Both the position numbers and the translations under genes were made by a program. From Flavobacterium psychrotolerans (GTDB lineage Bacteria; Bacteroidota; Bacteroidia; Flavobacteriales; Flavobacteriaceae): a DNA stretch of 64,000 nucleotides. Location: positions 62,001 through 126,000 of the forward strand of contig NZ_QCZI01000009.1 of assembly GCF_003097635.1 (NCBI RefSeq), given 5' to 3'. This document shows positions 1 to 15,517 of this stretch, one piece after another (position 1 is the stretch's first letter; the number at the start of each line of letters is the position of its first letter). The notes beneath the pieces are model-generated. The model was not told where the DNA came from. It worked only from the letters and a program-made list of their open reading frames with translations, and did no database searches.

Positions 1-1608
1 TACTATAAAATTGTGGTTGATGGCAATTGGATTCCTGACCCTAACAACCCATTGAAGATTAATGATGGAGGCACAAGCTTTAACTCGATCGTAAAGATTG
101 GAAATCCACCCATTCCATTACGTAAAATAAGTAAAGATCCTTTTCCAAAAGAAAAACTTCCAGAACCTATATTAAGTGCTAATCCAGAATTAGTGGAATT
201 GTATTATGAAGCTTGGAAGATGGCTTGGAAAAAAATTGGTTCAGGTACTCCGGAAAATGGCTTTTCAAAAAAATATATGGACGAAGGGTTCAATGAATTA
301 ATTTACCAATGGGATTTGTGTTTTATTACCAGTTTCGGTATGTATGGGCGAAGCGTCTTTCCCGTGATGCCCTCATTGGATAATTTTTACAAAAAACAAA
401 GAGCCGATGGTTATATTCAAAGAGTATATTGGGAAACCAACGGGAAAATTGCAAATGAACCTACCGCAGAGGAACCAATGGTAAATCCACCTCTTTTTGC
501 TTGGTTGGAATGGCGTTATTATGAAATATCTGGCGATGCTACCCGTTTTAAAAAAGTATTACCCGTTTTAGCCACCTATTTTAATTGGATAGAGAAAAAT
601 TGTCGAACAGAAAAGGGAAAAGGACTGTATTACACTTCTGAATTAGGAAGCGGAATGGATAACACACCCCGCAAAAATGTAGGCAAAGCCGCATGGATTG
701 ATTTTTCGTCCCAACAAGCGTTAGCTGCTCTGTATATTCAAAAAATTGCAGAAAAAACGGGAAACAAAACCACCGAAAAAGAGTTTAAAACCCATTATGA
801 GCAAATAAAAGGTTTAGTAAACTCCTTGTTGTGGGACAATAAATCAGGATTTTATTATGATTTGACCGAACAAAACACCTTAAGCCCAACGGTACATATT
901 GGTGCTTTTTGGACGCTTTTTTCAGAAATAGCTCCTAAGCAAAATGTCCCGTTTTTGCTACATCATTTACAAAACCCAAACGAATTTTGGAGAAAACATT
1001 TGGTTCCGACTTTGGCGGCAAATCAACCCGAATATGATAGTAAAGGACATTATTGGCTGGGCAGCGTTTGGTCTCCCACCAATTACATGGTAATTCAAGG
1101 CTTGAAAAAATATGGCGAAAATGATCTTGCGGATACCATCGCATTTAACCATCTCAAAAATGTAGCAAATATTTATTATCATTTTAAACCTGACATCGAA
1201 AAAATTGCATACGAAGAGCGTTATGCTGACTCCTATAAAACCATTTGGGAATGCTATTCCGCAGATTATGAAAGTCCTGCAACCCGTTGGGATAACACCT
1301 TTTACTCCCGTCAGGATTTTGTGGGTTGGTCTGGTCTTGCCCCAATTTCTTTGTTAATCGAAAATGTTTTGGGATTTGAAATTAAAGGAAATCAAAATCA
1401 AATTTGCTGGACTTTAAAGCGAAACGACACTTTTGGGATAAAAAATATCGAATTAAAAAACCAAAAAGTTTCATTGTTATGTGAACCGCAAGGGACAAAA
1501 CAAAAAATCACTATTCATTGTGAGAAACCTTTCGAATTGGGCATTATCAAGGGGGTCAAAAAACAGACCTATAAAATTTCGAAAAAAAATCAAGTCATTA
1601 CAATTTGA
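1..1608 (+). CDS. CBM48-linked (alpha/alpha)6 glycosidase, GH63/MGH1-like (5' partial)
   Basis: The frame is open from base 1 and continues upstream, so the N terminus is missing. The first codons read YKIVVDGNWIPDPNNP, the last strands of a CBM48/AMPK-type glycogen-binding module. About 60 residues later an (alpha/alpha)6-toroid hydrolase begins. It carries a QWDLCF motif like the substrate-binding QWD/WD motifs of GH63, GH37 and mannosylglycerate-hydrolase-like enzymes, and a late GHYWLGSVWSPTNYMV stretch typical of the same clan. The likely role is hydrolysis of a gluco- or mannoside attached to or derived from a glucan; the exact substrate cannot be read from the sequence. Secretion cannot be judged without the N terminus. 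It lies upstream of mlaEFD and is separated from it by a terminator. GH37 trehalase is an alternative, but the order of motifs fits GH63/MGH1 better. Confidence 0.75.
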   Translation, partial: YYKIVVDGNWIPDPNNPLKINDGGTSFNSIVKIGNPPIPLRKISKDPFPKEKLPEPILSANPELVELYYEAWKMAWKKIGSGTPENGFSKKYMDEGFNELIYQWDLCFITSFGMYGRSVFPVMPSLDNFYKKQRADGYIQRVYWETNGKIANEPTAEEPMVNPPLFAWLEWRYYEISGDATRFKKVLPVLATYFNWIEKNCRTEKGKGLYYTSELGSGMDNTPRKNVGKAAWIDFSSQQALAALYIQKIAEKTGNKTTEKEFKTHYEQIKGLVNSLLWDNKSGFYYDLTEQNTLSPTVHIGAFWTLFSEIAPKQNVPFLLHHLQNPNEFWRKHLVPTLAANQPEYDSKGHYWLGSVWSPTNYMVIQGLKKYGENDLADTIAFNHLKNVANIYYHFKPDIEKIAYEERYADSYKTIWECYSADYESPATRWDNTFYSRQDFVGWSGLAPISLLIENVLGFEIKGNQNQICWTLKRNDTFGIKNIELKNQKVSLLCEPQGTKQKITIHCEKPFELGIIKGVKKQTYKISKKNQVITI

Positions 1609-1693
1609 TTTCTAAAATGACTGATACTAATGAAATCAAATTTAGACACAACGATAAGAAAGCTAATTGTGTAAAATTAAAAAAATTTCAAAT

Positions 1694-1740
1694 AAAAAAA
1701 TCGTCTTGTTCTGAAAAAATGAAACGATTTTTTTATTTAT
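1694..1740 (+). terminator. Rho-independent terminator after the glycosidase
   Basis: An 11-bp perfect stem (1694-1704 with 1724-1734, core AAAAAAATCGT) flanks a 19-nt loop and ends in a T-rich tail. It sits 86 bases after the glycosidase stop codon and ahead of the mlaE promoter. The loop is longer than usual. Confidence 0.6.
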
Positions 1741-1832
1741 TAACGCGTACAAATCAAATTGTACTGCCGCCTTTGAGCTTTCAACATGACACTTTTAGAA
1801 CATTAAAAAGCTATAAAACCAAAGAATATTCA

Positions 1833-1840
1833 TATATTTG
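1833..1840 (+). promoter_or_regulatory. Bacteroidota -7 box upstream of mlaE
   Basis: TATATTTG matches TAnnTTTG and lies about 40 bases before the mlaE start at 1880. I could not find a good TTTG -33 element at the right spacing. Confidence 0.45.
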
Positions 1841-1879
1841 ATATACTATTTTCGATTAAAAATTAATTCATCTTTGTTT

Positions 1880-2662
1880 ATGAATAGTATTTTTAAAATT
1901 ATCGAATTGTTCAAATCTTTCTTATTGGAAGTTGGTGAGCTCTCCTATTTTGCCAGTCGCTTTTTTAAAGAAGTTTTTAAACCTCCTTATGAGTTTAAGG
2001 AATTCCTTAGGCAATGTTATAATATGGGAAACCGTTCCCTACTGCTTGTTGCCGTTACGGGATTTATTATCGGATTGGTTTTTACCTTACAATCGCGGCC
2101 TACACTTCAGGAATTTGGCGCTGTTTCCTGGATGCCTTCCATGGTGAGCATTTCAATTATTAGGGAGATAGGTCCAATTATCACCGCCTTAATTTGTGCG
2201 GGACGTATTGGTTCCGGAATTGGTGCTGAATTGGGCTCCATGCGGGTAACCGAACAAATTGACGCGATGGAGGTTTCCGGAACAAATCCTTTCAAATATT
2301 TAGTAGTCACACGAATAATGGCTACTACTTTTATGCTCCCCATTTTAGTTTTTTTTGGAGATGCCATTGCCATATATGGATCCTATCTGGTGGAGAACTT
2401 AAAAGGGAACGTTTCCTTTTTATTGTACTACAATCAGGTCTTTGACGCCTTAGAATTTGGCGATTTAATTCCTGCAACCATCAAGACTTTCTTTTTTGGA
2501 TATGCCATAGGATTAGTGGGGTGCTTTAAAGGGTATAACTGTAAAAAAGGCACCGCCGGAGTAGGTCTTGCTGCAAATTCCGCAGTAGTTTTTACTTCTC
2601 TGCTGCTTTTTATCATTGATTTTGTTGCCGTATTTGTTACTGATATTTTTTATGATTTATAA
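1880..2662 (+). CDS. mlaE: MlaE/YrbE-family ABC transporter permease
   Basis: This is the integral-membrane permease of an MCE-type phospholipid ABC transporter (260 aa). Residues about 95-145 hold the MlaE-family signature, starting REIGPIITAL and containing GRIGSGIGAELGSM and EQIDAMEVSG. Hydrophobic segments flank it on both sides (about 53-72, 147-165, 205-225, 235-257). The start at 1880 is chosen over an upstream TTG in the same frame (1838), because the family begins directly with the amphipathic interface helix and the -7 box overlaps the upstream codon. The gene is followed 3 bases later by mlaF and then mlaD, so the three form a minimal MlaEFD complex in one operon. No mlaB or mlaC is seen, which is common outside Proteobacteria. 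Direction of lipid transport is not deducible here. Confidence 0.93.
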   Translation: MNSIFKIIELFKSFLLEVGELSYFASRFFKEVFKPPYEFKEFLRQCYNMGNRSLLLVAVTGFIIGLVFTLQSRPTLQEFGAVSWMPSMVSISIIREIGPIITALICAGRIGSGIGAELGSMRVTEQIDAMEVSGTNPFKYLVVTRIMATTFMLPILVFFGDAIAIYGSYLVENLKGNVSFLLYYNQVFDALEFGDLIPATIKTFFFGYAIGLVGCFKGYNCKKGTAGVGLAANSAVVFTSLLLFIIDFVAVFVTDIFYDL

Positions 2663-2665
2663 GAT

Positions 2666-3418
2666 ATGAACAAACCCATTTCCAATCAAAAACCAGTGAT
2701 AGAAATCAAAGACTTACGTAAAAGCTATGGTGACAACCATGTTTTAGACGGTTTCAACATGTACTTAAATGAAGGTGAAAATTTGGTAATTATGGGGAAA
2801 TCAGGTTCCGGAAAATCAGTCATGATAAAGTGCTTAATTGGATTGGAAGAACCTGATGGTGGTACCATTATGGTAATGGGTAAAAATATTGGGGAATTGG
2901 AACGCGAGGAGTTAGATGAGCTTCGAACAGAGGTTGGGTTTCTGTTTCAAGGTAGCGCACTCTACGATTCAATGACCGTTCGGGAAAATTTAGAATTTCC
3001 GTTGAGGCGTCACACAAAAAAATTTGGAAAAATTAAGGATACCACACCATTGGTCATGGAAGCCTTAGAAAATGTAGGTTTGGCTCAAACAATAAATTTG
3101 ATGCCGGAGGAGCTTTCCGGAGGAATGAAACGCAGAATTGCTCTTGCCAGAACTTTAATCCTACTTCCGAAGATTATTCTTTACGACGAACCCACCACGG
3201 GATTAGACCCTATAACTGCAAAGGAAATTTTATTATTGATGATGTCCATTCAGAAAAAATACAATACCTCATCTATTATCATTACTCATGATGTGGATTG
3301 TGCCAGAATGATATCCAATCGAATGATTTTATTGGTTGATGGTATTAATTATGCAGAAGGGACTTTTGAAGAGTTATCTACATCAAAAGACCCGAAAGTT
3401 CGTGCCTTTTTTAAATAA
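2666..3418 (+). CDS. mlaF: MlaF-type ABC transporter ATP-binding protein
   Basis: This is the cytoplasmic ATPase that drives the MlaE permease (250 aa). All nucleotide-binding motifs are visible: Walker A GKSGSGKS (about 44-51), Q-loop glutamine near 94, the signature LSGGM (149-153), Walker B ending ILYDEP (about 170-175), the D-loop, and the switch histidine in ITHD (about 207). It starts 3 bases after mlaE. Its stop at 3418 is followed 7 bases later by the mlaD start, so translation is probably coupled. Family members in phospholipid (Mla) or toluene-tolerance (Ttg2A) transporters have this length and layout. Confidence 0.94.
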   Translation: MNKPISNQKPVIEIKDLRKSYGDNHVLDGFNMYLNEGENLVIMGKSGSGKSVMIKCLIGLEEPDGGTIMVMGKNIGELEREELDELRTEVGFLFQGSALYDSMTVRENLEFPLRRHTKKFGKIKDTTPLVMEALENVGLAQTINLMPEELSGGMKRRIALARTLILLPKIILYDEPTTGLDPITAKEILLLMMSIQKKYNTSSIIITHDVDCARMISNRMILLVDGINYAEGTFEELSTSKDPKVRAFFK

Positions 3419-3425
3419 ACAAAAA

Positions 3426-4400
3426 ATGGAAAAAACAGTCCCACAAAAAATTCAACTTGGTCTTTTTGTTATCGTCGGATTAATAATTTTTGTCCTGGCC
3501 ATTTATTTCATCGGAGATAAGCAGAAAATGTTTGGAAAAACAGATCATCTGAGCGCTGTATTTAACAATGTGAACGGCTTGCAAATAGGCAACAATGTGC
3601 GCTATTCCGGGATTAATGTAGGAACGGTTCTGGGTATTGAAATGGTGAGCGACACTATCATCCGAGTGGATATGATTATCGACAAAGCCATTTTACAACA
3701 TATCAAAAAAGATGCCGTCGCCACGATTAGTTCTGACGGATTGGTGGGAAATATGATCATTAGTATTACACCGGGTGATGGGACGCAACCTCCAGTTCAT
3801 CCCGGTGATGAGATTCGGTCTTTGAACCGCATTCGCGGAGAGGATATTTTAAATACACTTAGTATAACCAATAAAAATGCGGCTCGACTTACCACTGATT
3901 TACTTAAAATAACCAATGAAATAACTCTTGGCAAAGGAACTCTGGGTCTATTGGTTAATGATACTGTCATGGGAGATGATTTGAAACAAACCCTAAATTA
4001 TTTGAAACTGACTAGCAAAGGAACTTCGGAGTCCGTGACAAATTTGAACAAAATCATCGTGTCATTGAACAATAAGGACAATGTGGTTGGTGTTCTAAAA
4101 GATTCGGCAATAGCCAATAAAATCAAAACCATTGTTCGTAATTTAGATAAATCGAGCAATGGAATAGACAAGGTAGTTACCAATCTAAACACGACAATCC
4201 TGAACATTAAAGACGGAAAAGGAGCTATAAACTACCTTTCAAACGACCCAAAATTAGTTCGGAAAATAGATTCTACAATGAGTAATATTAACAACGCCAG
4301 TATCCGTTTAAATGAAGATCTCGAAGCCTTAAAACATAACTTTTTATTTAGGGGATATTTTAAAAAACAAGAAAAGGCAAAATTGAAAGAGAAGAAATAG
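3426..4400 (+). CDS. mlaD: MCE-domain substrate-binding protein (MlaD)
   Basis: This is a membrane-anchored periplasmic lipid-binding subunit (324 aa). One transmembrane helix spans about residues 9-29. The MCE domain follows (about 38-116) with the family features LSAVFNNVNGLQIGNNVRYSG split over its start and a GLVGNMIISI stretch at its end. A long helical tail rich in Asn, Leu and Lys follows, which in MCE proteins oligomerises into a ring or tube. The start at 3426 is preferred because the frame upstream overlaps mlaF out of frame and carries no signal. A strong terminator begins 60 bases downstream, closing the mlaEFD operon. Confidence 0.92.
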   Translation: MEKTVPQKIQLGLFVIVGLIIFVLAIYFIGDKQKMFGKTDHLSAVFNNVNGLQIGNNVRYSGINVGTVLGIEMVSDTIIRVDMIIDKAILQHIKKDAVATISSDGLVGNMIISITPGDGTQPPVHPGDEIRSLNRIRGEDILNTLSITNKNAARLTTDLLKITNEITLGKGTLGLLVNDTVMGDDLKQTLNYLKLTSKGTSESVTNLNKIIVSLNNKDNVVGVLKDSAIANKIKTIVRNLDKSSNGIDKVVTNLNTTILNIKDGKGAINYLSNDPKLVRKIDSTMSNINNASIRLNEDLEALKHNFLFRGYFKKQEKAKLKEKK

Positions 4401-4460
4401 ACGACTGTTAAAACACAAAACAAAACTTACAAATAATTGATTACTAATATTTTAAAAGTA

Positions 4461-4499
4461 AAATATTTGAAATTTATAAAATTTCAAATATTTTTTTTT
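4461..4499 (+). terminator. Strong terminator after mlaD
   Basis: A perfect 15-bp stem (4461-4475 with 4479-4493) closes a 3-base loop and runs into a stretch of T residues. The stem is AT-only apart from one G-C pair, as is common here. Confidence 0.75.
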
Positions 4500-4500
4500 G

Positions 4501-4508
4501 TAAATTTG
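4501..4508 (+). promoter_or_regulatory. -7 box for the GH130/GT4 genes
   Basis: TAAATTTG matches TAnnTTTG. It begins one base after the T-tract of the previous terminator and lies about 66 bases before the GH130 start. No convincing -33 box is seen because that region is the terminator stem. Confidence 0.45.
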
Positions 4509-4574
4509 AGTAAGGCGTTGGTTCAAATTACAACAGAAATATAATGCGATAAATAGTATCAAAAAACTCAAGTT

Positions 4575-5609
4575 ATGATAACAATTGAAAAACACGGAAT
4601 TATTCTAAGTCCAACGGAAAAGGAGTTTGAAAACAACGGAGTCCTTAACCCTGGCATCTTTCAGGAGGGAAACACGATACATATCCTATACAGGGCGGTA
4701 CAAGAAGGAAATTTGTCAACTATTGGTTACGCAAAAACCGATGGCCCCCTTAAAATTGTGGAAAGATACAAACACCCCCTAATTACCCGCGATTTCGATT
4801 ATGAGAGCCATGGCGTTGAGGATGCTCGAATTGTAAAAATTGAAGACACTTACTATATCACTTATACCGCTTATGATGGTGTGAATGCTATGGGAGCTTT
4901 CGCTACCTCTAAAGATTTGATCCATTTTGAGAAACAAGGAATCATTACTCCCACCGTTAATTATCAGGAATATGAATCTTTAGTACTATGTTGTGGCGAA
5001 AAATTAAACCCAAAATACCATCATTACTACAGGCTGTTTGCACAAATAGGTTTAGTTGCAGATGAGTTTAGATTGCTTAGAGATAAAGACATCGTATTCT
5101 TTCCAAGAAAAATAAATGGAAAATTTGCCCTTTTGCATCGAATATGGCCAGGCATACAGATTGTCTATTTTGACCATTGGAGGGATTTGACTAAGTCCTT
5201 TTGGGAGGATTATCTCAAACATTTAACCGATTATATTGTCCTTGATCCCAAAGGAATTTTTGAAGTAAACTATATTGGAGCTGGCGGCCCACCCATTGAA
5301 ACTGATGATGGCTGGTTGCTTATTTACCATGGAGTACATGAAACCACAACAGGGAGAACCTATCATGCTAAGGCCGCTTTACTTCAAATAGACAAACCAG
5401 AAAATGAAATATCCAGATTAAATTTACCTCTTTTCTCACCTACAAAACAATGGGAAATAGAAGGCGAGGTCAATAATGTTGTTTTCCCAACTGGCCATGC
5501 CCTCTTTGGTGATGATCTTTATATTTATTACGGAGCGGCAGACAAGCACATTGCAGTTGCCAAAATGAGTTTAAAAGAATTACTTATTGAATTAGTAAAA
5601 CAACCCTAA
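4575..5609 (+). CDS. GH130-family beta-mannoside phosphorylase/hydrolase
   Basis: This 344-aa protein has the five-bladed propeller layout of glycoside hydrolase family 130. Visible marks are the N-terminal NPGIF and ILYRAV strand, the GVEDARI motif (about 80-86) that holds the family's catalytic Asp, an ITYTAYDG strand, and a C-terminal LIYHGVHETT stretch ending with YYGAADKHIAVA. GH130 enzymes cleave beta-1,2- or beta-1,4-mannosidic bonds, mostly by phosphorolysis to mannose-1-phosphate and sometimes by hydrolysis. No signal peptide is present, so it acts in the cytoplasm, which favours phosphorolysis. The next gene, a GT4 fusion, follows after 10 bases, so the two are probably co-transcribed. 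The exact linkage and acceptor are not predictable. Confidence 0.88.
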   Translation: MITIEKHGIILSPTEKEFENNGVLNPGIFQEGNTIHILYRAVQEGNLSTIGYAKTDGPLKIVERYKHPLITRDFDYESHGVEDARIVKIEDTYYITYTAYDGVNAMGAFATSKDLIHFEKQGIITPTVNYQEYESLVLCCGEKLNPKYHHYYRLFAQIGLVADEFRLLRDKDIVFFPRKINGKFALLHRIWPGIQIVYFDHWRDLTKSFWEDYLKHLTDYIVLDPKGIFEVNYIGAGGPPIETDDGWLLIYHGVHETTTGRTYHAKAALLQIDKPENEISRLNLPLFSPTKQWEIEGEVNNVVFPTGHALFGDDLYIYYGAADKHIAVAKMSLKELLIELVKQP

Positions 5610-5619
5610 AACAATTATC

Positions 5620-7872
5620 ATGGAATTTGAAAAAGGGATGAAAATGCTAATTGTCAGCTCCTATCCACCACGGGAATGTGGTATTGCCACCTTTTCTAAT
5701 GACATTGTCAATGCGGTAGAAAATGTATTTGGAAATACACTTCCGATTGAAGTGTGTGCATTACAAAACAACGCTCAACAAGTTGATTATAATGATGAAG
5801 TAACCTATGTTTTAACCACAACTTCTTTAGATGATTACCGCTTAGTGGCAGAAAAAATAAATGACCGAAATGACATTGGGCTAGTTTGTGTTCAACATGA
5901 ATTTGGTCTTTTCGGAGGGGAATTTGGCGATTATATCCTGTCCTTCATTTTAGCGTTAAACAAACCAGTTATTACTGTTTTCCATTCCGTTTTGCCGGAA
6001 CCGGAAGAAAAAAGAAAAAAAGTGGTTCATGCCATAGCTGACCTTTCAAATCAAATAGTGGTTCTTACAAAAATATCCCGAGAAATTTTGGTTGACCATT
6101 ACAATTGTCCAATATCAAAAATAACCGTAATTCCCCATGGTACCCACACTATTCTTTGGGAACAAAAAGAAAATTTAAAAACAAAATATAATTTATCCGA
6201 TAAAATAGTTTTGTCCACATTTGGTTTGATTAATGAAAATAAAAATATAGAAACGGTTCTGTATGCATTGCCGGAAATTGTAGCTAAATATCCTCAAACA
6301 CAATATTTAGTTATTGGAAAAACCCACCCAGAAGTTATTAAACGTGAAGGAGAAAATTACAGAGATCAACTTATTAAAATTGTACAAGAACTTCAATTAG
6401 AAAACAACGTGGTTTTTATTAATGAATATCTTGAATTGTGGCAGTTACTTGAATACTTAACTTTATCAGAAATATATCTATTTTCATCCAAAGATCCCAA
6501 TCAGGCCGTTAGCGGTACCTTTGCTTATGCCATGAGTTGCGGATGTGCCGTTATTTCTACACCAATACCTCATGCTGTTGAATCTCTAACGGATGGCAAC
6601 GGAATATTATTAGATAATTTTGACAAACCAAAAGAATTTGAAAAAGCCATTCTGAAACTTATCAAAAATAAAGAAGCACGTATTACAATGGGAAAAAATG
6701 CATTCTCCTTAGCACACGCTACATCATGGGAAAATATCGCTATTCAATACCGATTGCTGTTCGATCAATTGACGAATAGAGAAGGCGATTTGAGATTCAA
6801 CTCCCCTCCCATAAAACTAGACCACATAGAGAAGCTCACTACGGATTTCGGCATCCTGCAATTTTCTAAATTAAGCGAGCCAGATCCAGAATCGGGATAT
6901 ACATTAGATGACAATGCACGAGCATTAATTGACATGGTAATCTATCATACCCATTACCATGATTCAAAGTCTCTAAAACTAGCAGATACCTATATGGAAT
7001 ATATTGAAGGCATTCAGAAAGATGATGGCTGGTTTTACAATTACAAAAGCTTTGACCATCAATTAACAAAGCAAAATTTAGAAGTAAATCTTGAAGACGC
7101 TAACGGAAGAGCATTATGGAGCTTGGGAACTGTAATTGCTAATAAAGAAACCTTACCTATGTGGCTGGTGTTGCGAGCAGAAAAATGTTGGAACAAAGCT
7201 ATAGAAAGAATACATGACATTACCTCTCCGAGAGCCATCGCTTATGCCTTAAAAGGTCTCTTTCATTATTATTCTAAATATCCTAATGAAGAAATAAAGA
7301 ATCATATTGAAAAACTTGCTAATGAACTATTGCGCCATTATCACATCAATTCTGAAGAAAATTGGTGTTGGTATGAAGACTACATGACCTATGCCAATAA
7401 TGTCCTGCCAGAGGCAATGCTTTACAGTTATATGGTCACTAGAAAACCGAAATATAAAAAAATTGCTCTCATTACGTTTGATTTTCTTTTATCGCAATAT
7501 TTCATGAAAGGGCAGTTAAAAGTAATCTCAAATAGAGGATGGTTCAAAAAACAAAACGAAAGAGTGTTTTATGGAGAACAGCCCATCGAGGTATCCACCA
7601 CCATCATTGCTTTAGATTTGTTTTATGAAGTCACGGGAAATAGTAAATATAAAGATCAGCTAAAATTGGCTTTTAACTGGTTTTTAGGAAACAATCACCT
7701 CAAACAAATCATGTATAATCCAGAAAATGGTGCATCCTATGATGGCCTTGAAGACAAACACGTCAATATTAATCAGGGAGCTGAATCTACTTTATGCTTT
7801 TTTAAAGCACAATTGATTATGGAAAAATACGCTGAAAAACAGAAATTTAAAAAAACGTATGCCCATTCTTAA
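5620..7872 (+). CDS. GT4 glycosyltransferase fused to an (alpha/alpha)-toroid domain
   Basis: This is a 750-aa two-domain protein. Residues about 8-390 form a GT-B glycosyltransferase of family 4 type: an N-terminal SSYPPRECGIATF nucleotide-fold start, GGEFGDY, and a C-terminal Rossmann half with STFGLINENKN. From about 405 to 740 comes an all-helical domain with repeated helix pairs (GYTLDDNARALIDM, DANGRALWSLG, EDYMTYANNVLPEA, INQGAESTLCFF) that resembles (alpha/alpha)6 glycosidase or epimerase-like toroids. The donor-binding E-X7-E motif of GT4 is replaced around SGTFAYAMSCG: the two Glu positions are Gln and Tyr. Other GT4 proteins near GH130 genes share the SGT.AYA form, as far as I recall. 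No signal peptide is seen. It lies 10 bases after GH130, so it may build the glycoside that the neighbour breaks down. Sugar and product are unknown. Confidence 0.85.
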   Translation: MEFEKGMKMLIVSSYPPRECGIATFSNDIVNAVENVFGNTLPIEVCALQNNAQQVDYNDEVTYVLTTTSLDDYRLVAEKINDRNDIGLVCVQHEFGLFGGEFGDYILSFILALNKPVITVFHSVLPEPEEKRKKVVHAIADLSNQIVVLTKISREILVDHYNCPISKITVIPHGTHTILWEQKENLKTKYNLSDKIVLSTFGLINENKNIETVLYALPEIVAKYPQTQYLVIGKTHPEVIKREGENYRDQLIKIVQELQLENNVVFINEYLELWQLLEYLTLSEIYLFSSKDPNQAVSGTFAYAMSCGCAVISTPIPHAVESLTDGNGILLDNFDKPKEFEKAILKLIKNKEARITMGKNAFSLAHATSWENIAIQYRLLFDQLTNREGDLRFNSPPIKLDHIEKLTTDFGILQFSKLSEPDPESGYTLDDNARALIDMVIYHTHYHDSKSLKLADTYMEYIEGIQKDDGWFYNYKSFDHQLTKQNLEVNLEDANGRALWSLGTVIANKETLPMWLVLRAEKCWNKAIERIHDITSPRAIAYALKGLFHYYSKYPNEEIKNHIEKLANELLRHYHINSEENWCWYEDYMTYANNVLPEAMLYSYMVTRKPKYKKIALITFDFLLSQYFMKGQLKVISNRGWFKKQNERVFYGEQPIEVSTTIIALDLFYEVTGNSKYKDQLKLAFNWFLGNNHLKQIMYNPENGASYDGLEDKHVNINQGAESTLCFFKAQLIMEKYAEKQKFKKTYAHS

Positions 7873-7937
7873 CGAGTTCATTTAATTATTATTTTTTTGC
7901 AAAAAAATTATATCTTTATGCTTCTAGACTATAATTT

Positions 7938-9347
7938 ATGAATTCTATCCGAAAAAATGTTGTTTTGTTACTGCTATTCCTCTTATGTAGTTGCAATCAT
8001 TCTGACAAAAAGAACCCTTCTGAATTAAATAGTGATGTACTCTCCAGATACAAACCCAAAAACTATGTGGAAGTAAAACATCCAGAGTGGAGCAAAAACG
8101 CAACAATTTATGAAGTAAATGTACGTCAATTTACTCCAGAAGGCACTTTTAAAGCATTTGAAACTCATTTGCCTAGATTAAAAGCAATGGGGGTTGATAT
8201 TATTTGGCTCATGCCCATAAATCCTATTGGCATCGAAAAAAGAAAAGGCACTTTGGGCAGCTATTATTCCGTGAAAGATTACTATGGCGTCAATCCTGAA
8301 TTTGGAACAAAAGAAGATTTAAAAGCACTTGTCAAAAAAATTCATACCATGGGAATGCATGTTATTGTAGACTGGGTTGCAAATCACTCCTCTTGGGATA
8401 ATGTCTTGGCAAAAGAGCACCCCGATTGGTATTCCAAAACTCCAGAAGGGAATTTTCAACCAACTCCTTGGTACGATTGGGAGGACATTATTGATTTTGA
8501 TTATGACAAACCTGAATTGAGAAAATACATGACCGATGCCTTAAAATATTGGGTGAAAGAAGCTAATATAGACGGTTATCGTTGTGATGTTGCTGGATTT
8601 ATTCCAGTTGATTTCTGGGAAAATGCCAGAGCAGAAATGGATGAAATCAAACCTGTTTTTATGCTTGGTGAATGGGAATCTCGTGATTTACACAGAAAAG
8701 CTTTTGACATGACATATTCTTGGAGCTTATGGGATAAAATGCATTCCGTTACCAAGGATGGGAAAAGTTTGGCCGGCTTGGTTGAATATATGGCACATGA
8801 TGTGAGTACATTCCCAAAAGATGCCTACCGAATGACTTTTACGGAGAACCACGATAAAAATTCCTGGGAAGGCAATCAATATTCTAATTTTGGTGATGGA
8901 CTGGAAGCTTCCATGGTTTTGGCTTGTACTATTAACGGAATGCCACTCATTTATAGCGGACAGGAAGCTGGACTGAATCGCTCCTTAAAATTCTTTGATA
9001 AAGACTTAATTGAATGGAAAAACCATCCCTACGCAGCCATTTACACAAAACTGTTTGACTTAAAACATAAAAACCAAGCATTATGGAACGGGAGTTATGG
9101 AGGCGAAATGATTCGTGTTTTTAATGACAAACCAGAACAAGTTATTTCATTTTCAAGAACTAAAAATGGAGATCAAGTAATTCCAATCATTAATTATAGT
9201 AATAAACCAGTTACTGTAAAACTGAACTCAAAATATCAAAAAGGAACTTACAATGAACTGTTTTCAAACACAATTCATGTATTTATTGGCGATGACATAA
9301 TTACTTTAGCCCCTTGGAAATATTTAATTTTAGTAAAACAGAAATAA
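7938..9347 (+). CDS. GH13 alpha-amylase-family lipoprotein
   Basis: This 469-aa protein has a lipoprotein signal peptide (LLFLLCSCN, lipidated Cys about 19) and a GH13 barrel. The catalytic triad is complete: nucleophile Asp about 217 in GYRCDVAG, acid/base Glu about 245 in MLGEWE, and Asp about 306 in FTENHD. A VDWVANHSS stretch gives conserved region I, and a short beta C-terminal domain ends the protein. It should hydrolyse or transglycosylate alpha-glucans at the cell envelope. It follows the GT4 fusion after 65 bases on the same strand, so co-transcription is possible but not certain. No SusC/SusD pair is in the window, so it is not part of a complete starch-utilisation locus here. Confidence 0.92.
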   Translation: MNSIRKNVVLLLLFLLCSCNHSDKKNPSELNSDVLSRYKPKNYVEVKHPEWSKNATIYEVNVRQFTPEGTFKAFETHLPRLKAMGVDIIWLMPINPIGIEKRKGTLGSYYSVKDYYGVNPEFGTKEDLKALVKKIHTMGMHVIVDWVANHSSWDNVLAKEHPDWYSKTPEGNFQPTPWYDWEDIIDFDYDKPELRKYMTDALKYWVKEANIDGYRCDVAGFIPVDFWENARAEMDEIKPVFMLGEWESRDLHRKAFDMTYSWSLWDKMHSVTKDGKSLAGLVEYMAHDVSTFPKDAYRMTFTENHDKNSWEGNQYSNFGDGLEASMVLACTINGMPLIYSGQEAGLNRSLKFFDKDLIEWKNHPYAAIYTKLFDLKHKNQALWNGSYGGEMIRVFNDKPEQVISFSRTKNGDQVIPIINYSNKPVTVKLNSKYQKGTYNELFSNTIHVFIGDDIITLAPWKYLILVKQK

Positions 9348-9639
9348 CAATTCAAGACCCAATTTATTTATAACTTCTGGATTTTGGTATATGGCAAAAA
9401 ACTAAATAGATTTCCTTTTTTCAAACCGTATCAAAGTATTAAAGAAACTACGAGCAACAACTTCCCATACTTTTTCAAATACATTTTGAGATAATGTACT
9501 GTATTCGGATTTTCATTTTGAACCATTCCATTTTTAAACTAGGTATCCTTAAATCAATCTGGATTCAAAATAATGGAAAACAAACACCAACTTGTTGAAA
9601 ATATTTCCCAATTTGAATTTTTAATACCAATCAAACCCT
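9348..9639. other. Intergenic region without recognised features
   Basis: I see no coding frame with family resemblance, no hairpin and no repeat between the GH13 stop and the rlmD promoter. Short open frames overlapping rlmD on the minus strand are shadows. Confidence 0.5.
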
Positions 9640-9647
9640 TATTTTTG
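9640..9647 (+). promoter_or_regulatory. -7 box abutting rlmD
   Basis: TATTTTTG followed by C is a full match to TAnnTTTGY. It ends four bases before the ATG at 9652, so a transcript from it would be nearly leaderless. A TTTG at 9612-9615 is a possible -33 box, with spacing slightly long. Confidence 0.5.
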
Positions 9648-9651
9648 CGCC

Positions 9652-11067
9652 ATGGCAAAGAAAAATACAGACAAAATCGTTTTTGATCACATAAAAGTCC
9701 TTGATGCGGGCGCAAAAGGTGTTTCGGTGGCAAAAGCGCCAGACGGAAAAGTAATATTCATTCCCAATGTCGTTCCAGGAGATGTGGTAGACGTGCAAAC
9801 ATTCAAAAAGCGCAAAGCCTATTATGAGGGAAAAGCCGTTCGTTTTCATGAATTTTCGGAACATCGAATCGAACCCATTTGCGAACATTTTGGGGTTTGT
9901 GGCGGTTGCAAATGGCAAAACATGAAATACAGCCAACAGTTGTACTACAAACAAAACGAGGTAAAAAACCATTTGCAACGCATAGGAAAAGTGGAACTTC
10001 CGGAATTTGAGCCGATTTTAGGTTCGGAAAAACAATTCTTTTACAGAAACAAAATGGAATTTGGTTTTTCCAATGCCCGTTGGCTTACCGAACAGGAAAT
10101 TGATAGTACCGAAGATTTAGGAAACAGAAATGCATTGGGTTTTCATATCCCAAAAATGTGGGACAAAATCCTGGACATTACCAAATGCCATTTGCAGGAA
10201 GATCCTTCTAATGCGATACGAAACGAAATTAGGGCTTTTGCCAATGACAATGATTTGGCATTTTTCAACCCAAGACACCACGAGGGATTTTTAAGAACAT
10301 TGATGATTCGAACAGCGTCAACCGGAGAAATCATGGTTTTGATTCAGTTTTTTGAAGAAGACAAAACCAAAAGGGAATTATTATTGAATTTCCTTATGGA
10401 TCGTTTTCCGGAAATAACTTCGCTACAATACGTAATTAACGGAAAACCAAACGATACCATTTATGACCAAGAGGTAAAATTATTTAAGGGTCGCGATTAT
10501 ATCCTAGAGGAAATGGAAGGTTTGAAATTTAGCATCAATGCCAAATCTTTTTACCAAACCAATTCTGATCAGGCCTACGAATTGTATAAAATAACCCGCG
10601 AATTTGCCGGATTGACAGGAAATGAGGTTGTTTATGATTTATATACGGGAACAGGAACCATAGCCCAATTTGTTTCTAAAAATGCAAAAAAAGTGATTGG
10701 TGTAGAAAGTGTTCCTGAAGCCATTGTTGACGCCAAAGCAAACGCAAAACGCAACGAAATTACCAATTGTGAATTTTATGTAGGAGACATGAAAGTGGTT
10801 TTCAATGACAATTTTCTTGCCCAACACGGTCAGCCTGATGTCATTATTACTGACCCGCCAAGAGACGGAATGCACAAAGACGTAATCGAACAAATCTTGA
10901 AAATTGCTCCGGAGAAAATCGTTTATGTAAGTTGTAATTCGGCAACACAGGCTAGGGATTTAGCCTTAATGGATGAATTTTATAAAGTAACCCGCGTACG
11001 GCCGGTAGATATGTTTCCGCAAACGCATCATGTAGAAAATGTGGTACTTTTAGAGAAACGAAAATAG
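9652..11067 (+). CDS. rlmD: 23S rRNA (uracil-5-)-methyltransferase RlmD/TrmA family
   Basis: This 471-aa protein has the RlmD layout. An N-terminal TRAM RNA-binding domain spans about residues 5-68. A 4Fe-4S motif follows with Cys about 77, 83, 86 (CEHFGVCGGCKW) and 179. The C-terminal SAM methyltransferase fold shows VYDLYTGTGTIAQF, then DPPRDG and VYVSCNS, the latter holding the catalytic Cys that attacks uracil C6. It modifies a uridine to m5U in 23S rRNA, by analogy U1939; TrmA- or RlmC-like specificity cannot be excluded. The DUF6452 and DUF6048 genes follow on the same strand, an arrangement I recognise from flavobacterial genomes. Confidence 0.93.
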   Translation: MAKKNTDKIVFDHIKVLDAGAKGVSVAKAPDGKVIFIPNVVPGDVVDVQTFKKRKAYYEGKAVRFHEFSEHRIEPICEHFGVCGGCKWQNMKYSQQLYYKQNEVKNHLQRIGKVELPEFEPILGSEKQFFYRNKMEFGFSNARWLTEQEIDSTEDLGNRNALGFHIPKMWDKILDITKCHLQEDPSNAIRNEIRAFANDNDLAFFNPRHHEGFLRTLMIRTASTGEIMVLIQFFEEDKTKRELLLNFLMDRFPEITSLQYVINGKPNDTIYDQEVKLFKGRDYILEEMEGLKFSINAKSFYQTNSDQAYELYKITREFAGLTGNEVVYDLYTGTGTIAQFVSKNAKKVIGVESVPEAIVDAKANAKRNEITNCEFYVGDMKVVFNDNFLAQHGQPDVIITDPPRDGMHKDVIEQILKIAPEKIVYVSCNSATQARDLALMDEFYKVTRVRPVDMFPQTHHVENVVLLEKRK

Positions 11068-11163
11068 TGTTCTGTATTAAGAAAATTACAGGAAGTAGGT
11101 TTCAGTTCACAGATCCTATTTTTAGTTGTTGTCATTGATTTTTGTTATTGAAATTTGAGTTCT

Positions 11164-11685
11164 ATGAAGAAAATACTTTTACTTATTTTCGTACTAACAT
11201 TGTCCTTCTCCAGTTGTGAGAAAGATGATATTTGCGATGCCAATACGCCAACAACACCAAGACTCATTATAGATTTTTATGACATTACAAATCCTACCAT
11301 TACAAAAAACGTAACTAATCTAGGCATTGTAGGAGACGGATTGACAACAGGGATTTTATTTAATGGGGTTCATCAAATTCAGGTTCCGCTAAAATTGACC
11401 GATGATAAAACAAAATTCAGCTTTGTTTTAAATGCAGGAAATACCAATCCTGCTTTAATTTACACTGATATTCTTGAATTTAATTATTCCCGAAAAACAG
11501 TTTTTGTCTCCCGAGCGTGTGGCTACAAAACATTGTTTGACCTGAATAATGATGCTGCTTTGCCCAATCCCTTTGTACTAAACAACAATCCGCTTGCTAC
11601 TCAAGGCATTTGGATCCAAAATATTACTGTCGAAAAATATAATTTAGAAACTGAAAATGAAACACACATCAAAATATATTTTTAG
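11164..11685 (+). CDS. DUF6452-type lipoprotein
   Basis: This 173-aa protein starts with a short lipoprotein signal (FSSCEKDD, Cys about 18) and continues as a beta-rich domain typical of the Bacteroidota family DUF6452. Its function is unknown. The start at 11164 is chosen because it begins the signal peptide; an upstream in-frame TTG adds only three residues. The last 29 bases overlap the start of the next gene, DUF6048, so the two are translationally linked. The pairing of a surface or periplasmic lipoprotein with a predicted outer-membrane barrel suggests a joint envelope role, which is inference. Confidence 0.75.
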   Translation: MKKILLLIFVLTLSFSSCEKDDICDANTPTTPRLIIDFYDITNPTITKNVTNLGIVGDGLTTGILFNGVHQIQVPLKLTDDKTKFSFVLNAGNTNPALIYTDILEFNYSRKTVFVSRACGYKTLFDLNNDAALPNPFVLNNNPLATQGIWIQNITVEKYNLETENETHIKIYF

Positions 11686-12409
11686 TATTTGCTTCGTGTT
11701 GTCGTCATTTTTGATGCAGGCACAAGAAACAAAAAAAGCAGACAGTATTCCCGTAAAAATAAATCGCTATGGACTGCGAGTTGGTATAGATTTGTTCAAA
11801 CTTTCCCGCTCCTTTTATGAAAAAGACTATAAAGGATTGGAAGTTGTTGGAGATTACAGAATCTCCAAAAAATATTATCTAGCTGGAGAATTGGGTAACG
11901 AAAATAAAACGGTTGATGATAATCGGTTAAATTTTACCACAAAAGGCACCTATTTTAGAGCGGGATTCGATTATAATTTCTACGAAAACTGGCTTGATAT
12001 GGAAAACAAAATCTATATCGGAATGCGATATGGCGTAAGTTCTTTTAGCCAAAAACTAAACAGTTATAAAATCTATAACGCACACCCCTATTTTGAAAAT
12101 ACTCCAGTAATTATATCTGGAGAAAAATTTGACGGATTAACGGCACAATGGGTTGAAGTTGTTGTTGGAGTCAACGCAAAAATTTATAATAATATTTATG
12201 TGGGGTTCAGTTTTAGGATGAATAATTTGATTTCAAATAAGAAGCCGGCAAATTTCGACAACCTGTACATTCCTGGTTTTAATCGGACCTATAATGGGAA
12301 TTTTGGCGTAGGATTTAACTATACCGTTTCCTATTTCATTCCTATTTATAAGAAAAAAGCAGACGTAGGAGCAGCAAAAAAGGAAGACAAGAAAAAGAAA
12401 AAATTCTAA
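11657..12409 (+). CDS. DUF6048-family predicted outer-membrane beta-barrel
   Basis: This 250-aa protein has a Sec signal peptide (cleavage after MQAQ, about residue 23). Alternating amphipathic strands follow throughout, such as GLRVGIDLFKLSR, YYLAGELGNEN and YRAGFDYNFYEN-like patterns, ending in a basic tail KKEDKKKKKF. The layout fits a small outer-membrane barrel of family DUF6048. It overlaps the DUF6452 lipoprotein gene by 29 bases. No enzymatic motif is visible. The gene converges on the minus-strand gene ending at 12418 with only 8 bases between them. Confidence 0.75.
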   Translation: MKHTSKYIFSICFVLSSFLMQAQETKKADSIPVKINRYGLRVGIDLFKLSRSFYEKDYKGLEVVGDYRISKKYYLAGELGNENKTVDDNRLNFTTKGTYFRAGFDYNFYENWLDMENKIYIGMRYGVSSFSQKLNSYKIYNAHPYFENTPVIISGEKFDGLTAQWVEVVVGVNAKIYNNIYVGFSFRMNNLISNKKPANFDNLYIPGFNRTYNGNFGVGFNYTVSYFIPIYKKKADVGAAKKEDKKKKKF

Positions 12410-12417
12410 ATTCGTAA

Positions 12418-12654
12418 TTACTTAATTTCCTTAATTCCCTTCAAAAACATCCATTTCATAAACAGTTTTTCGCCATCATTGGTTTTTACAGCTTGAAATT
12501 TTGGGGCTAAAATGGTTCCTATCACAAAAGCAGTCAGTGGAATCCAAAAACCAGACAGATTGGTGTACTTTTCTACTAGGTAACGAAACCCTACAAACAA
12601 AATAATAAAAGAGAGTAGGTTAAAAATAAAGGCTCTTACTTGTAATTTATTCAT
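12418..12654 (-). CDS. Small two-helix membrane protein
   Basis: This 78-aa protein has two hydrophobic segments (about residues 7-26 and 36-50) separated by a short loop, and a charged C-terminal tail ending FLKGIKEIK. I do not recognise a family. It lies 20 bases after the THUMP methyltransferase on the same strand, so it is probably its operon partner. Confidence 0.65.
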   Translation of the reverse strand: MNKLQVRAFIFNLLSFIILFVGFRYLVEKYTNLSGFWIPLTAFVIGTILAPKFQAVKTNDGEKLFMKWMFLKGIKEIK

Positions 12655-12674
12655 GATTTTATAATTTATTACTA

Positions 12675-13877
12675 TTATTCTATTATTGAATTATCCGACT
12701 CTTGGCTCAAATCATTTTCACGAACTTGTGCAAACTTAGTCCTCTTGCTTCCCTCATACATTTCGTATTTAACCAGTCTGGCTTCAATACTCGCATTGAA
12801 AAGTTTAATTTTTCTGGAAGGTTTTAAGCCCACAAATTTTAGTGCTTCAAGATTCCCGGTGATAAACCAAGCATTGGTTCCTGGATAATTTTTCTTAAGC
12901 GTATCGCCAATGTTTTTGTAGAACTCTTCCATGTGTATATCCAAACGCTCATCATAAGGCGGATTGAAAACCATGTGTAATTTTCCTTGAGTAGTTTTCT
13001 CGGTATCAAAAAAGTTTTGTTCCTCAATGGTTATATATTCGTCCAAATTTGCATTTTTAATGTTGTCTTTGGCTTTCATTACGGCACTTGGCGCTTTATC
13101 GTAACCCTTTATGGTATAATGAAATTCTCGTACTTTTTTCAACAAACTATTAGTGATGCTGTCAAACAATTCATTGTCCCAATCGTTCCATTTTTCGAAA
13201 GCAAATTCTTTTCTGTTGATGTTGGCCGGAATATTACACGCAATCATAGCTGCTTCAGCTAAGAAAGTTCCGCTACCACACATGGGATCCAGGAAATCGC
13301 CTTGACCGTCCCAACCTGAAAGCAACAGAATTCCTGCAGCAAGCACTTCGTTAATAGGTGCAATATTGGTTGCGGTTCTATACCCACGTTGATGAAGCGA
13401 ATTTCCGGAAGTATCCAGCGCCACCGAAACTTGGTCTTTATCGATATGGATGTTTATTCTTAAATCAGGAAAAACTTTGTCAATGCTTGGTCGTTGGCCA
13501 GTTCTTTCTCTAAATTGATCTACAATCGCATCTTTACATTTTTGGGACACAAATTCGGAATGATTAAAATAATCCGAATGCACCGTTGCATCAATTACAA
13601 AAGTCTGATTCGCATTGATAAATTTTGACCAGTTTACGCCCGAAACGCCTTTGTATAAAGCCTGTTCGTTATTGGCCTTAAAGAAATAAATGGGTTTCAA
13701 GATTTTCAAAGCCGTACGCAAAGACAAATTCGCCTTGTACATAAACCCTTTATCCCCTTTAAAACTGACCATTCTCACACCCTGTTCAACTTCTTGTGCG
13801 CCCAATTGTTGCAATTCTTTTGCTAATATTTCTTCAAAACCAAAAAAGGTTTTGGCAATCATTTTAAAATTTTCCAT
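12675..13877 (-). CDS. THUMP-domain RNA guanine-N2 methyltransferase (RlmL N-half-like)
   Basis: This 400-aa enzyme has an N-terminal ferredoxin-like/THUMP RNA-binding region (about residues 5-160). A class I SAM-methyltransferase domain follows with FLDPMCGSGTFLAEAA (SAM loop) and VFNPPYDERL (N-P-P-Y, typical of N2-guanine or N6-adenine methylation). It corresponds to the first half of E. coli RlmL, which forms m2G2445 in 23S rRNA; the second, RlmK-like half is absent, as in most non-enterics. The Met at 13862 is an alternative start, five residues later, and also begins well (MIAKTFFG). Confidence 0.88.
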   Translation of the reverse strand: MENFKMIAKTFFGFEEILAKELQQLGAQEVEQGVRMVSFKGDKGFMYKANLSLRTALKILKPIYFFKANNEQALYKGVSGVNWSKFINANQTFVIDATVHSDYFNHSEFVSQKCKDAIVDQFRERTGQRPSIDKVFPDLRINIHIDKDQVSVALDTSGNSLHQRGYRTATNIAPINEVLAAGILLLSGWDGQGDFLDPMCGSGTFLAEAAMIACNIPANINRKEFAFEKWNDWDNELFDSITNSLLKKVREFHYTIKGYDKAPSAVMKAKDNIKNANLDEYITIEEQNFFDTEKTTQGKLHMVFNPPYDERLDIHMEEFYKNIGDTLKKNYPGTNAWFITGNLEALKFVGLKPSRKIKLFNASIEARLVKYEMYEGSKRTKFAQVRENDLSQESDNSIIE

Positions 13878-13882
13878 AGCCT

Positions 13883-13902
13883 CCTAACCCCCAAAGGGGA
13901 AA
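13883..13902. repeat. C-run/G-run intergenic palindrome
   Basis: CCTAACCCCCAAAGGGGAAA contains a CCCC/GGGG stem around AAA. A related but longer C-rich/G-rich stretch occurs at 17147-17181. Such short palindromes are frequent between flavobacterial genes, to my knowledge. Confidence 0.4.
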
Positions 13903-13932
13903 TTGTTATCGTTATATTTGGCAAAAATAGAC

Positions 13933-13940
13933 TAAATTTG
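13933..13940 (+). promoter_or_regulatory. -7 box upstream of the SAM methyltransferase
   Basis: TAAATTTG followed by C fully matches TAnnTTTGY and lies 27 bases before the ATG at 13968. A second match, TATATTTG, lies at 13913-13920. Confidence 0.5.
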
Positions 13941-13967
13941 CATTTTAAATGAAATTCAAAATAATAA

Positions 13968-14732
13968 ATGCCGAATTCAATAAAACCCAAGTCCCAAGAC
14001 CTACAACACAAAACCCACAATTGGTTCGCCTCTTGGTTTGACACTCCATATTATCACATCCTTTATAAGGAAAGAAATTATAGAGAAGCCCAGGTTTTCA
14101 TGGATAATCTGACGCACTATCTCAACCTTCCCGAAAAAGCCAAAGTACTTGATTTGGCCTGTGGCAAAGGCAGGCATTCCATCTATCTAAATCAGTTGGG
14201 CTATGATGTTGTGGGCGCCGATTTGTCTGAAAACAGTATTGCGGAGGCCGATAAAAACAAAAATGCAACCCTTCATTTCCAAGTCCATGATATGCGCGAA
14301 ACTTTTGATGATAAATTTGACGCCATATTTAATTTGTTTACCAGTTTTGGTTATTTTGAAAATGACGAAGACAACTTGACCACTTTAAAGGCGATGAAAG
14401 AGAGTTTGACTGAATATGGTTTTGCCGTAATTGACTTTATGAATGTCAATCAAGTGGTTGATAATTTAGTTCCCGAAGAAATAAAAACGGTTAATGGGAT
14501 TGCTTTTCATATCAAGAGATACATAAGTGAAGGACATATTTATAAAGAAATTGACTTTGAAGACCAAGGCGAAAAATTTCATTTCACTGAAAAAGTAAAG
14601 GCATTAACGCTCAAGGATTTTGAAGCATTAATGGAAGAAGCCGGTATTTTTTTATTGGATATTTTTGGCGATTATAAATTGAAAAAATTCCATAAAACCG
14701 AAAGTGAACGATTAATTATGATATTTAAATAA
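13968..14732 (+). CDS. Class I SAM-dependent methyltransferase
   Basis: This 254-aa protein has a Methyltransf_25-like domain with motif I VLDLACGKGRHS (about 56-67) and motif II GADLSENSI (about 79-87). The target is not identifiable; similar proteins act on small molecules. The stop overlaps the start of the ZIP transporter by one base (TAATG), implying translational coupling, although no functional link between the two is obvious. The promoter lies just upstream, in the gap to the divergent THUMP gene. Confidence 0.8.
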   Translation: MPNSIKPKSQDLQHKTHNWFASWFDTPYYHILYKERNYREAQVFMDNLTHYLNLPEKAKVLDLACGKGRHSIYLNQLGYDVVGADLSENSIAEADKNKNATLHFQVHDMRETFDDKFDAIFNLFTSFGYFENDEDNLTTLKAMKESLTEYGFAVIDFMNVNQVVDNLVPEEIKTVNGIAFHIKRYISEGHIYKEIDFEDQGEKFHFTEKVKALTLKDFEALMEEAGIFLLDIFGDYKLKKFHKTESERLIMIFK

Positions 14733-15400: not shown

Positions 15401-15432
15401 CCACAAAACCACCAATTTATATTTAATCCATA

Positions 15433-15460
15433 TTTGCTAAAATTTTATTTGCTAAATTTG
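15433..15460 (+). promoter_or_regulatory. Promoter for murQ (-33 TTTG, -7 TAAATTTG)
   Basis: TTTG at 15433-15436 and TAAATTTG at 15453-15460 (followed by T) are 16 bases apart, near the usual Bacteroidota spacing. The expected leader is about 50 bases and carries the 8-base repeats at 15478-15501. Confidence 0.55.
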
Positions 15461-15477
15461 TAAATTATCAAAAACAT

Positions 15478-15501
15478 CTTTGTGCCTTTGTGCCTTTGTG
15501 G
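15478..15501 (+). repeat. Three tandem CTTTGTGS octamers
   Basis: CTTTGTGC is present twice and CTTTGTGG once, back to back, 17 bases before the murQ ATG. From memory, similar CTTTGTG/CTTTGCG runs occur between many flavobacterial genes. Confidence 0.5.
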
Positions 15502-15517
15502 CAAAAAATATAACGAA

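Follow-up and report, generated by a model that had tools for sequence, protein, structure and literature searches.

The 64,000-nucleotide stretch of Flavobacterium psychrotolerans analyzed here (contig NZ_QCZI01000009.1, positions 62,001 to 126,000; hereafter the window) carries a gene for a propeller enzyme of glycoside hydrolase (GH) family 130 and, 10 bases after its stop, a gene for a fusion of a GT4-like glycosyltransferase (GT) domain with an (alpha/alpha)6 toroid. The GH130 and the GT4-toroid fusion are a real conserved unit, and we propose, with a probability of about 0.4, that the pair makes and recycles an intracellular mannoside of mixed alpha and beta linkage. The two genes would form an operon and represent, in Flavobacteriia, a cytosolic mannoside module of wide distribution. 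An initial annotation of this DNA had described GH130, the GT4 fusion 10 bases on and a GH13 lipoprotein as a possible glycan cycle; open frames and Pfam matches bear out that arrangement of three genes, and the comparison with relatives restricts the system to the first two.

The linkage of the pair is tight. With starts chosen by alignment, GH130 directly precedes the fusion in all 37 pairs measured, that of the window among them, with a gap of between -14 and +13 bases; three further values come from extra upstream GH130 copies of one locus, L045. Among 31 close loci from named genomes, an open GT4 frame follows GH130 in 29 (two of them, L034 and L049, cut by the contig end), L044 has its GT4 stretch interrupted in all three frames, and the contig of L056 stops before the gene. 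The fusion is present in 74 of 395 sampled Bacteroidota genomes (E <= 1e-30). A closely related GH130 (E <= 1e-75) accompanies it in 74/74 of these, compared with 13/321 genomes without the fusion, a contrast to be read knowing that the cut was chosen after seeing the match list, that the Fisher test ignores kinship, and that the profile used, A5, was built from loci beside the fusion and favors linked GH130 types. At the looser cut of 1e-30 the counts are 74/74 and 61/321.

Within about 8 kb of the fusion, a GH130 gene stands before it, after it or on the opposite strand in 50 of 60 Bacteroidota loci, far more than chance would give with few GH130 genes per genome of 3-5 Mb. These wider loci comprise 59 stretches around 76 match rows (74 genomes) and one other, and some repeat close loci (L192/L051, L193/L048 and L194/L061). 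The initial annotation had suggested looking for conserved GH130-GT4 linkage in Bacteroidota, and it is there. GH130 type, gene order and strand vary between loci while the association with the fusion stays, a pattern better explained by a common function than by inherited order. Adjacent genes of one lineage may stay adjacent, but a chance or inherited neighborhood with no functional link would have to produce complete co-occurrence and an association that survives all these changes across four phyla (Bacteroidota, Pseudomonadota, Fusobacteriota and Deinococcota), and we give it next to no weight. No description of the pair turned up among the titles listed in searches of the open-licence literature; earlier notice in Li et al. 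2020, on GH130 diversity, is possible.

The sugar is suggested by plasmids. The fusion matches 31 plasmid records, mostly from Alphaproteobacteria with one Fusobacteriota and one Deinococcota among those read, and 17 of the 31 are predicted to be conjugative. Fifteen, picked for variety with near-copies omitted, were compared by region from gene tables that are incomplete. In each of the 15, a GH130 lies close to the fusion or what remains of it, in L214 ~4.5 kb away on the opposite strand. Eight regions contain genes for mannose-6-phosphate isomerase, mannose-1-phosphate guanylyltransferase and/or phosphomannomutase, adjoining the pair in seven (L200, L204, L205, L207, L210, L211 and L212) and nearby in L214; by annotation, L200 has all three around the pair. 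HAD proteins several kb off in L207 and L214 score as eukaryote-type phosphomannomutase. Because GDP-mannose genes adjoin the pair in 7/15 regions, mannose is likely the sugar handled, as the initial annotation had supposed. The GT4 domain is moreover the only transferase gene named beside the guanylyltransferase in the plasmid operons of L200, L207, L211 and L212, a context that favors GDP-mannose as its donor.

Chaperone genes lie near the pair in the same four plasmid regions: GroESL in L200; Hsp20, GrpE and DnaK in L207 and L211; GrpE and DnaK in L212. L207, L211 and L212 appear to carry the same kind of island, and the four regions together suggest a mobile heat or stress tolerance island in sphingomonads. 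Two further neighbors were seen: a Ferritin/Dps-like gene (PF00210, one below cut-off) near the fusion in five of the 60 Bacteroidota loci (L145, L148, L174, L175 and L188), and, on two rhizobial plasmids, His-Xaa-Ser (Hxs) radical SAM genes at a distance of a few kb (L203:14924-17993 and L204:19623-20217).

The first half of the fusion matches PF00534 (GT group 1) with 70.5 bits against a cut-off of 26.4. The model of the whole fusion has a predicted local distance difference test score (pLDDT) of 76.9, and the fold matches of the GT4 domain, from a comparison that realigns only Foldseek's top 1000 chains, include sucrose-phosphate synthase (6kih, Z 32.6), MshA (31.7) and the phosphatidylinositol mannosyltransferase PimA (30.4). 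The E-x7-E motif is the hallmark of most GT4 members. At its position the fusion reads Q-x7-Y in 91 and Q-x7-D in 2 of 93 aligned rows, 66 of which are the window and the wider set, and the usual Arg before the conserved Lys is replaced by Leu, Phe or Ile. A separate GT4b from 12 Bacteroidota loci has E-x7-E in 11/12 and GR...K in 12/12. The fusion domain keeps invariant residues of its own in 93/93 rows (H122, H173, T235-H236-P237, Y247-R248, Q295 and S298-G299-T300), and for this reason does not look like a decaying domain. Its donor may be GDP-mannose, bound in a changed site, or else a sugar 1-phosphate.

The GH130 protein of the window matches PF04041 with 158.5 bits (cut-off 26) and is the only GH130 match of its genome; its start is not signal-like, in keeping with the cytosolic enzyme first annotated. 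Against NCBIfam NF052550 (beta-1,2-mannobiose phosphorylase) it reaches 201.2 bits, under the 450 cut-off. Asp83, in the ED.R motif, is invariant in alignments A2 (24 rows) and A5 (20 rows, three GH130 types) and is probably catalytic by analogy with Asp142 of BT3780, going by the accessible text of PMC4599007. GH130s linked to the pair are of three types, F (the window's), L (~420-560 residues as open frames) and S (~300-370), assigned by the single residue at the Tyr233 position, with a tree and an insert confirming the clade independently. In the tree of 103 rows, type F is one clade (support 100/99) including the window's GH130 and all 30 F rows, type L is one clade (100/100) sister to F (96/86), and type S is not one clade. 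The insert spans 49-55 residues between F118 and K171 in clade F and 11-13 in types S and L (50 F, 22 S and 29 L rows), so that some 40 extra residues before K171 are unique to type F.

Clade F has Tyr or His at the Tyr233 position, type L has Gln, and type S has Lys or Arg. Its equivalent is Arg or Lys in the five solved relatives viewed (9fj8, 7fip, 5b0p, 1vkd and 9eqq), within the motif E..[RK][VI]G.G..P, and this basic residue, which we take to bind phosphate, is missing from the window's GH130 and its whole clade. K171 and R189, presumably further basic positions of GH130 phosphorylases, are kept in the window and the F rows, the exceptions being extra L045 copies (R189 lost in two, K171 changed to Arg in one). 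As far as the accessible text of PMC4599007 describes, three basic residues bind phosphate in GH130 and mannosidases swap basic for carboxylic residues. Types F and L, with Tyr/His or Gln at the Tyr233 position, therefore appear to fit neither pattern. The same text has the GH130 beta-1,2-mannosidases BT3780 and BACOVA_03624 likewise not keeping all phosphate-binding basic residues; these enzymes, however, carry glutamates and serve yeast-mannan loci (PMC4599007), whereas clade F has Tyr or His at one site and keeps K171 and R189.

Two unusual GH130 arrangements came up in the same set. L045 has four tandem F-type genes followed by one GT4-toroid (L045:5808-10129), and two of the copies lack the equivalents of R189, H252 and D323, as if turned into inactive partners. 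L063:3225-5135 and L064:6960-8927 encode ~640-residue proteins that match PF04041 with >340 bits in two stretches, each beside another GH130; they are possibly double-propeller enzymes, and one of the two is encoded in the genome of a candidate phylum.

The second half of the fusion has no Pfam match in the window's domain. Modeled alone from a 43-sequence alignment, it gives an (alpha/alpha)6 toroid with mean pLDDT 94, and its nearest solved folds are (alpha/alpha)6 enzymes, so the GT4-toroid fusion of the initial annotation holds. The closest is YPO2471 of Yersinia (7tem; Z 39.9 over 337 residues), a putative exported protein that, unlike the fused toroid, has a single domain; no functional paper on YPO2471/7TEM was found among the titles listed from the open-licence literature. 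Next come an exo-glucosidase/glucosaminidase (Z 29.9), cellobiose 2-epimerases (<=29.8) and GH76 (27.6); as a further point of comparison with GH76, the toroid has an Asp-Asp pair, D430-D431, while lacking a Pfam match. Among the aligned toroids, D431, E586 and E722 show no or almost no variation. A search of PHROGs returned a single match at E 0.084, and the window's genome holds one toroid match, within the fusion. Cellobiose and mannobiose 2-epimerases of the AGE superfamily are used with GH130 in mannan catabolism, and these enzymes have a conserved catalytic His pair. The toroid shares their fold (Z ~29.8) but has no Pfam match and one well-kept His, H402 (88/93 rows, and 43/43 in alignment A4), the next, H693, being present in 49/93; this lowers the case for a mannobiose-epimerase role.

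Toroids also occur free of GT4. In 12 of the 13 GH130 genomes without the fusion (the exception is G424), a free-standing toroid stands in the GH130 locus, that of L239 ~6 kb from GH130 and cut by the stretch end, which leaves some chance of a fusion there. Free toroids with a visible start begin like signal peptides or lipoproteins by eye, and those tried among L235-L247 have no Pfam or NCBIfam name. The L236 locus encodes two ATP-binding cassette (ABC) permeases together with a solute-binding protein and a GH2 mannosidase-type protein; L238 has a gene for a binding protein, and L241 one for a MalK-type ATPase. All three L236 transport proteins, the two permeases and the binding protein, have matches in 11 of these 13 loci; among fusion loci such a full set is found in 0/31 close, 2/60 wider (L180 and L187, both also with a free toroid) and 0/15 plasmid regions, in a phmmer control with the three L236 proteins that would miss other importer families. 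L235-L247, with free toroids, GH130 and mostly importer genes, thus have the appearance of a Bacteroidota mannoside import locus. The toroid apparently accompanies GH130 in two ways, exported in import loci, and intracellular when fused to GT4, without that importer. Its company of GH130, importers and, in one locus profiled in full, a GH2 mannosidase-type protein ties it to mannoside breakdown, and the missing importer of fusion loci fits a glycan of the cell's own. That the window is not an ordinary import locus, as first noted, agrees with these counts and with its surroundings: no SusC/D-sized or SusC/D-like gene was seen in positions 1-16,330 or the 8 kb upstream, with not all frames of the window profiled.

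How the two enzymes might work together is constrained by stereochemistry. Being retaining enzymes, GT4 members should form an alpha bond from GDP-alpha-mannose. GH130 acts on beta-mannosides in the accessible text of PMC4264767 and PMC4599007, and the pair therefore cannot simply build and break one bond. The initial proposal that GT4 builds and GH130 breaks a mannoside stands as to a conserved pair and a likely mannose sugar, and is weakened as to a cycle on the same bond. A mixed product would resolve the conflict, since GT4 could add alpha and GH130 add or remove beta residues. We propose that the GT4-like domain transfers mannose from GDP-mannose onto an acceptor with an alpha product, that GH130 adds or removes a beta-linked mannosyl residue on this product via mannose 1-phosphate, and that the toroid trims the same glycan. 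The outcome would be a small mannoside with both alpha and beta bonds, kept inside the cell as a reserve or stress protectant. A precedent for such a product is the GH130 enzyme Uhgb_MS, whose products on the acceptor alpha-1,2-mannobiose are listed in the accessible text of PMC8950772 as beta-1,2 and alpha-1,2 linked.

Several observations weigh against this proposal. In ten of the 60 Bacteroidota loci the fusion lacks a GH130 nearby; in 12/12 genomes searched, those of the ten loci and two more, GH130 is found elsewhere in the genome. Seven of the 15 plasmid regions show no isomerase, guanylyltransferase or mutase gene in their incomplete tables (L203 and L213 have an AGE epimerase instead, and one of the seven is unannotated), and in L200 the small isomerase (55 of 116.2 bits) and the mutase (172.5 of 439) fall below the NCBIfam cut-offs. 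The window's own genome does hold GDP-mannose genes, which speaks for the proposal, but these, a guanylyltransferase-like gene below the cut-off of the two-domain model and an isomerase gene, are not at the locus but on other contigs. Judged by their motifs, neither chemistry is assured: lacking E-x7-E and the Arg, the GT4 domain may not use a nucleotide sugar, and Tyr/His233 puts phosphorolysis by the window's GH130 in doubt.

The motif loss in GT4 lends itself to an account in which the pair only salvages a mannoside, of the cell's own or outside origin, with the GT4 domain altered or non-transferring and GH130 and toroid releasing mannose 1-phosphate or mannose for GDP-mannose or glycolysis. 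It comes close to the proposal for Thermoanaerobacter, where a GH130 was proposed to feed GDP-mannose synthesis from a cluster with guanylyltransferase and GT4 (Chiku et al. 2014, PMC4264767), and toroid and GH130 do occur without a fused GT4 in import loci. The invariant residues of the GT4 domain are unlike those of a decaying one, however, and almost every fusion locus lacks import genes; other transporters are listed several kb from the pair in the tables of L203 and L205 (a tricarboxylate type, and a solute-binding protein with a major facilitator superfamily protein). We consider salvage alone doubtful, if a serious contender.

That Thermoanaerobacter cluster, Teth514_1786-1789, is the closest published proposal found, and its GH130s are read in the accessible text as salvaging GDP-mannose from imported oligomannan (PMC4264767). 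Like the window pair, it has signal-less GH130s beside a GT4 ('GDP-mannose-dependent alpha-mannosyltransferase'), together with a guanylyltransferase, and an intracellular role was proposed (PMC4264767). An ABC importer, a GH5 and two characterized beta-1,2-mannoside phosphorylases belong to that cluster only, and no toroid is mentioned in the accessible text (PMC4264767). The window pair is without importer, has the GT4-toroid fusion and belongs to another GH130 clade.

Another kinship is with Leishmania mannogen, whose GT108 dual transferase-phosphorylases are GH130-like propellers turning over a beta-1,2-mannan energy reserve (accessible text of PMC8950772); these are eukaryotic and of another CAZy family. 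A profile search of solved structures with A2, at E up to 10, did not return 6Q50, a weak test of GT108 membership given that GT108 is distant in sequence. The likeness invites a bolder version that we regard as unlikely: a mannogen-like internal mannoside in several phyla, made and remobilized through two non-standard enzymes, with the toroid processing the product and some plasmids carrying the module in stress islands alongside chaperone genes. Here the GT4-fold enzyme without E-x7-E may be a retaining phosphorylase acting on sugar 1-phosphates, and the new-clade GH130 may carry out transfer rather than phosphorolysis. The first idea draws on the invariant Gln, which fits the Gln/Asn said to stabilize the transition state in GT4 and GT35 phosphorylases (accessible text of PMC8950772).

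The lipid-transport genes mlaEFD, between the GH63 gene and GH130 in the window, raise the alternative of a role in envelope assembly, in which the pair would make or modify a mannosylated glycolipid or a surface glycan, with mlaEFD as functional neighbor. In Flavobacterium these genes lie upstream, downstream or on the opposite strand of the pair (the window, L143, L145, L148 and L196-L198), 32 of 47 F-type loci have mlaE within the stretch retrieved, and the GT4 domain resembles PimA. But mlaE was not found in the other 15, some on short contigs (L140, L146, L147, L149, L150, L153 and others), none is named in the plasmid gene tables, and PimA is one among many similar GT4 folds; an envelope role strikes us as rather improbable.

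The remaining neighbors are carbohydrate-active but unlinked in relatives. The GH13 protein matches PF00128 (alpha-amylase) with 123.7 bits against a cut-off of 22, starts with a lipobox-like LLLFLLCSC by eye, and keeps GYRCDVAG, LGEWE and TENHD, which we take to hold the GH13 catalytic residues (Asp/Glu/Asp). The upstream (alpha/alpha)6 glycosidase beyond mlaEFD, correctly recognized at the outset, is GH63/MGH1-like by Pfam, and most of its CBM48/AMPK1_CBM match falls outside the window, on the upstream side, in L002. Neither appears to belong to the system by the comparison made: in the 31 close loci (seven with less than the full 8 kb per side because of contig ends) and the 60 wider ones, there is no GH13 match >90 bits and no GH63 match >60 bits. 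Weaker GH13-family matches, at 53 bits in L035 and, next to distant GH130s of Bacillota (L067-L074 and L082), at 65-85 bits, are read as other GH13 proteins. An esterase gene precedes the GH63 gene by 2 bases, which places GH63 in another unit. The cycle as first noted, with GT4 making and GH130 breaking one mannoside and GH13 and GH63 in the same pathway, can appeal to same-strand adjacency in the window but has the unlinked neighbors and the alpha versus beta stereochemistry against it, and we think it very improbable.

Coordinates of the pair, its domains and diagnostic residues, and neighboring genes in the window
Feature	Position	Strand	Basis
GH130 propeller enzyme, clade F (Flavobacteriia type), 344 aa	4575..5609	+	PF04041
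Asp83, invariant, GVEDAR motif of GH130	4821..4823	+	A2 and A5 alignments
Insert of clade F GH130, F118 to K171	4929..5084	+	Alignment of F, S and L rows
Tyr233 of GH130	5271..5273	+	Comparison with types S and L and solved relatives
GT4-toroid fusion, 750 aa	5620..7872	+	Open frame
GT4-like GT-B domain of fusion (putative)	5620..6783	+	PF00534, fold matches
Q295-x7-Y303 replacing GT4 E-x7-E	6502..6528	+	Alignment, 93 rows
(alpha/alpha)6 toroid domain, C-terminal in fusion (predicted)	6784..7872	+	Model; without Pfam family
mlaE, mlaF, mlaD lipid-transport genes	1838..4400	+	PF02405, PF00005, PF02470
GH13 alpha-amylase-like lipoprotein, 469 aa	7938..9347	+	PF00128; judged outside system
CBM48-GH63 (MGH1-like) glycosidase, C-terminal part	1..1608	+	Judged outside system

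The fusion is the largest frame in positions 1-16,330. The larger frames in the 8 kb upstream of the window are two type IX-sorted proteins (L002:102-6851), the esterase and GH63; one of the sorted proteins, of 1712 residues, has IgGFc-binding and type IX sorting domains. A promoter and terminator scan of positions 4300-9700 gave 18 and 3 sites compared with 22.8 and 3.2 in shuffles, and was uninformative.

GH130 enzymes are mostly discussed as catabolic tools for outside mannans, as in the papers cited here. The pair, which by its sequence appears to be a variant form of known GH130-GT4 mannose clusters, is a compact module, found in 74/395 sampled Bacteroidota and on plasmids, and makes the question of a mannoside of the cell's own testable with two proteins. 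It also points to altered active-site motifs in one GT4 group and two GH130 groups, all currently annotated simply as 'GT4' or 'GH130'. The pair suggests an undescribed route by which these bacteria would make and recycle an internal mannose sugar.

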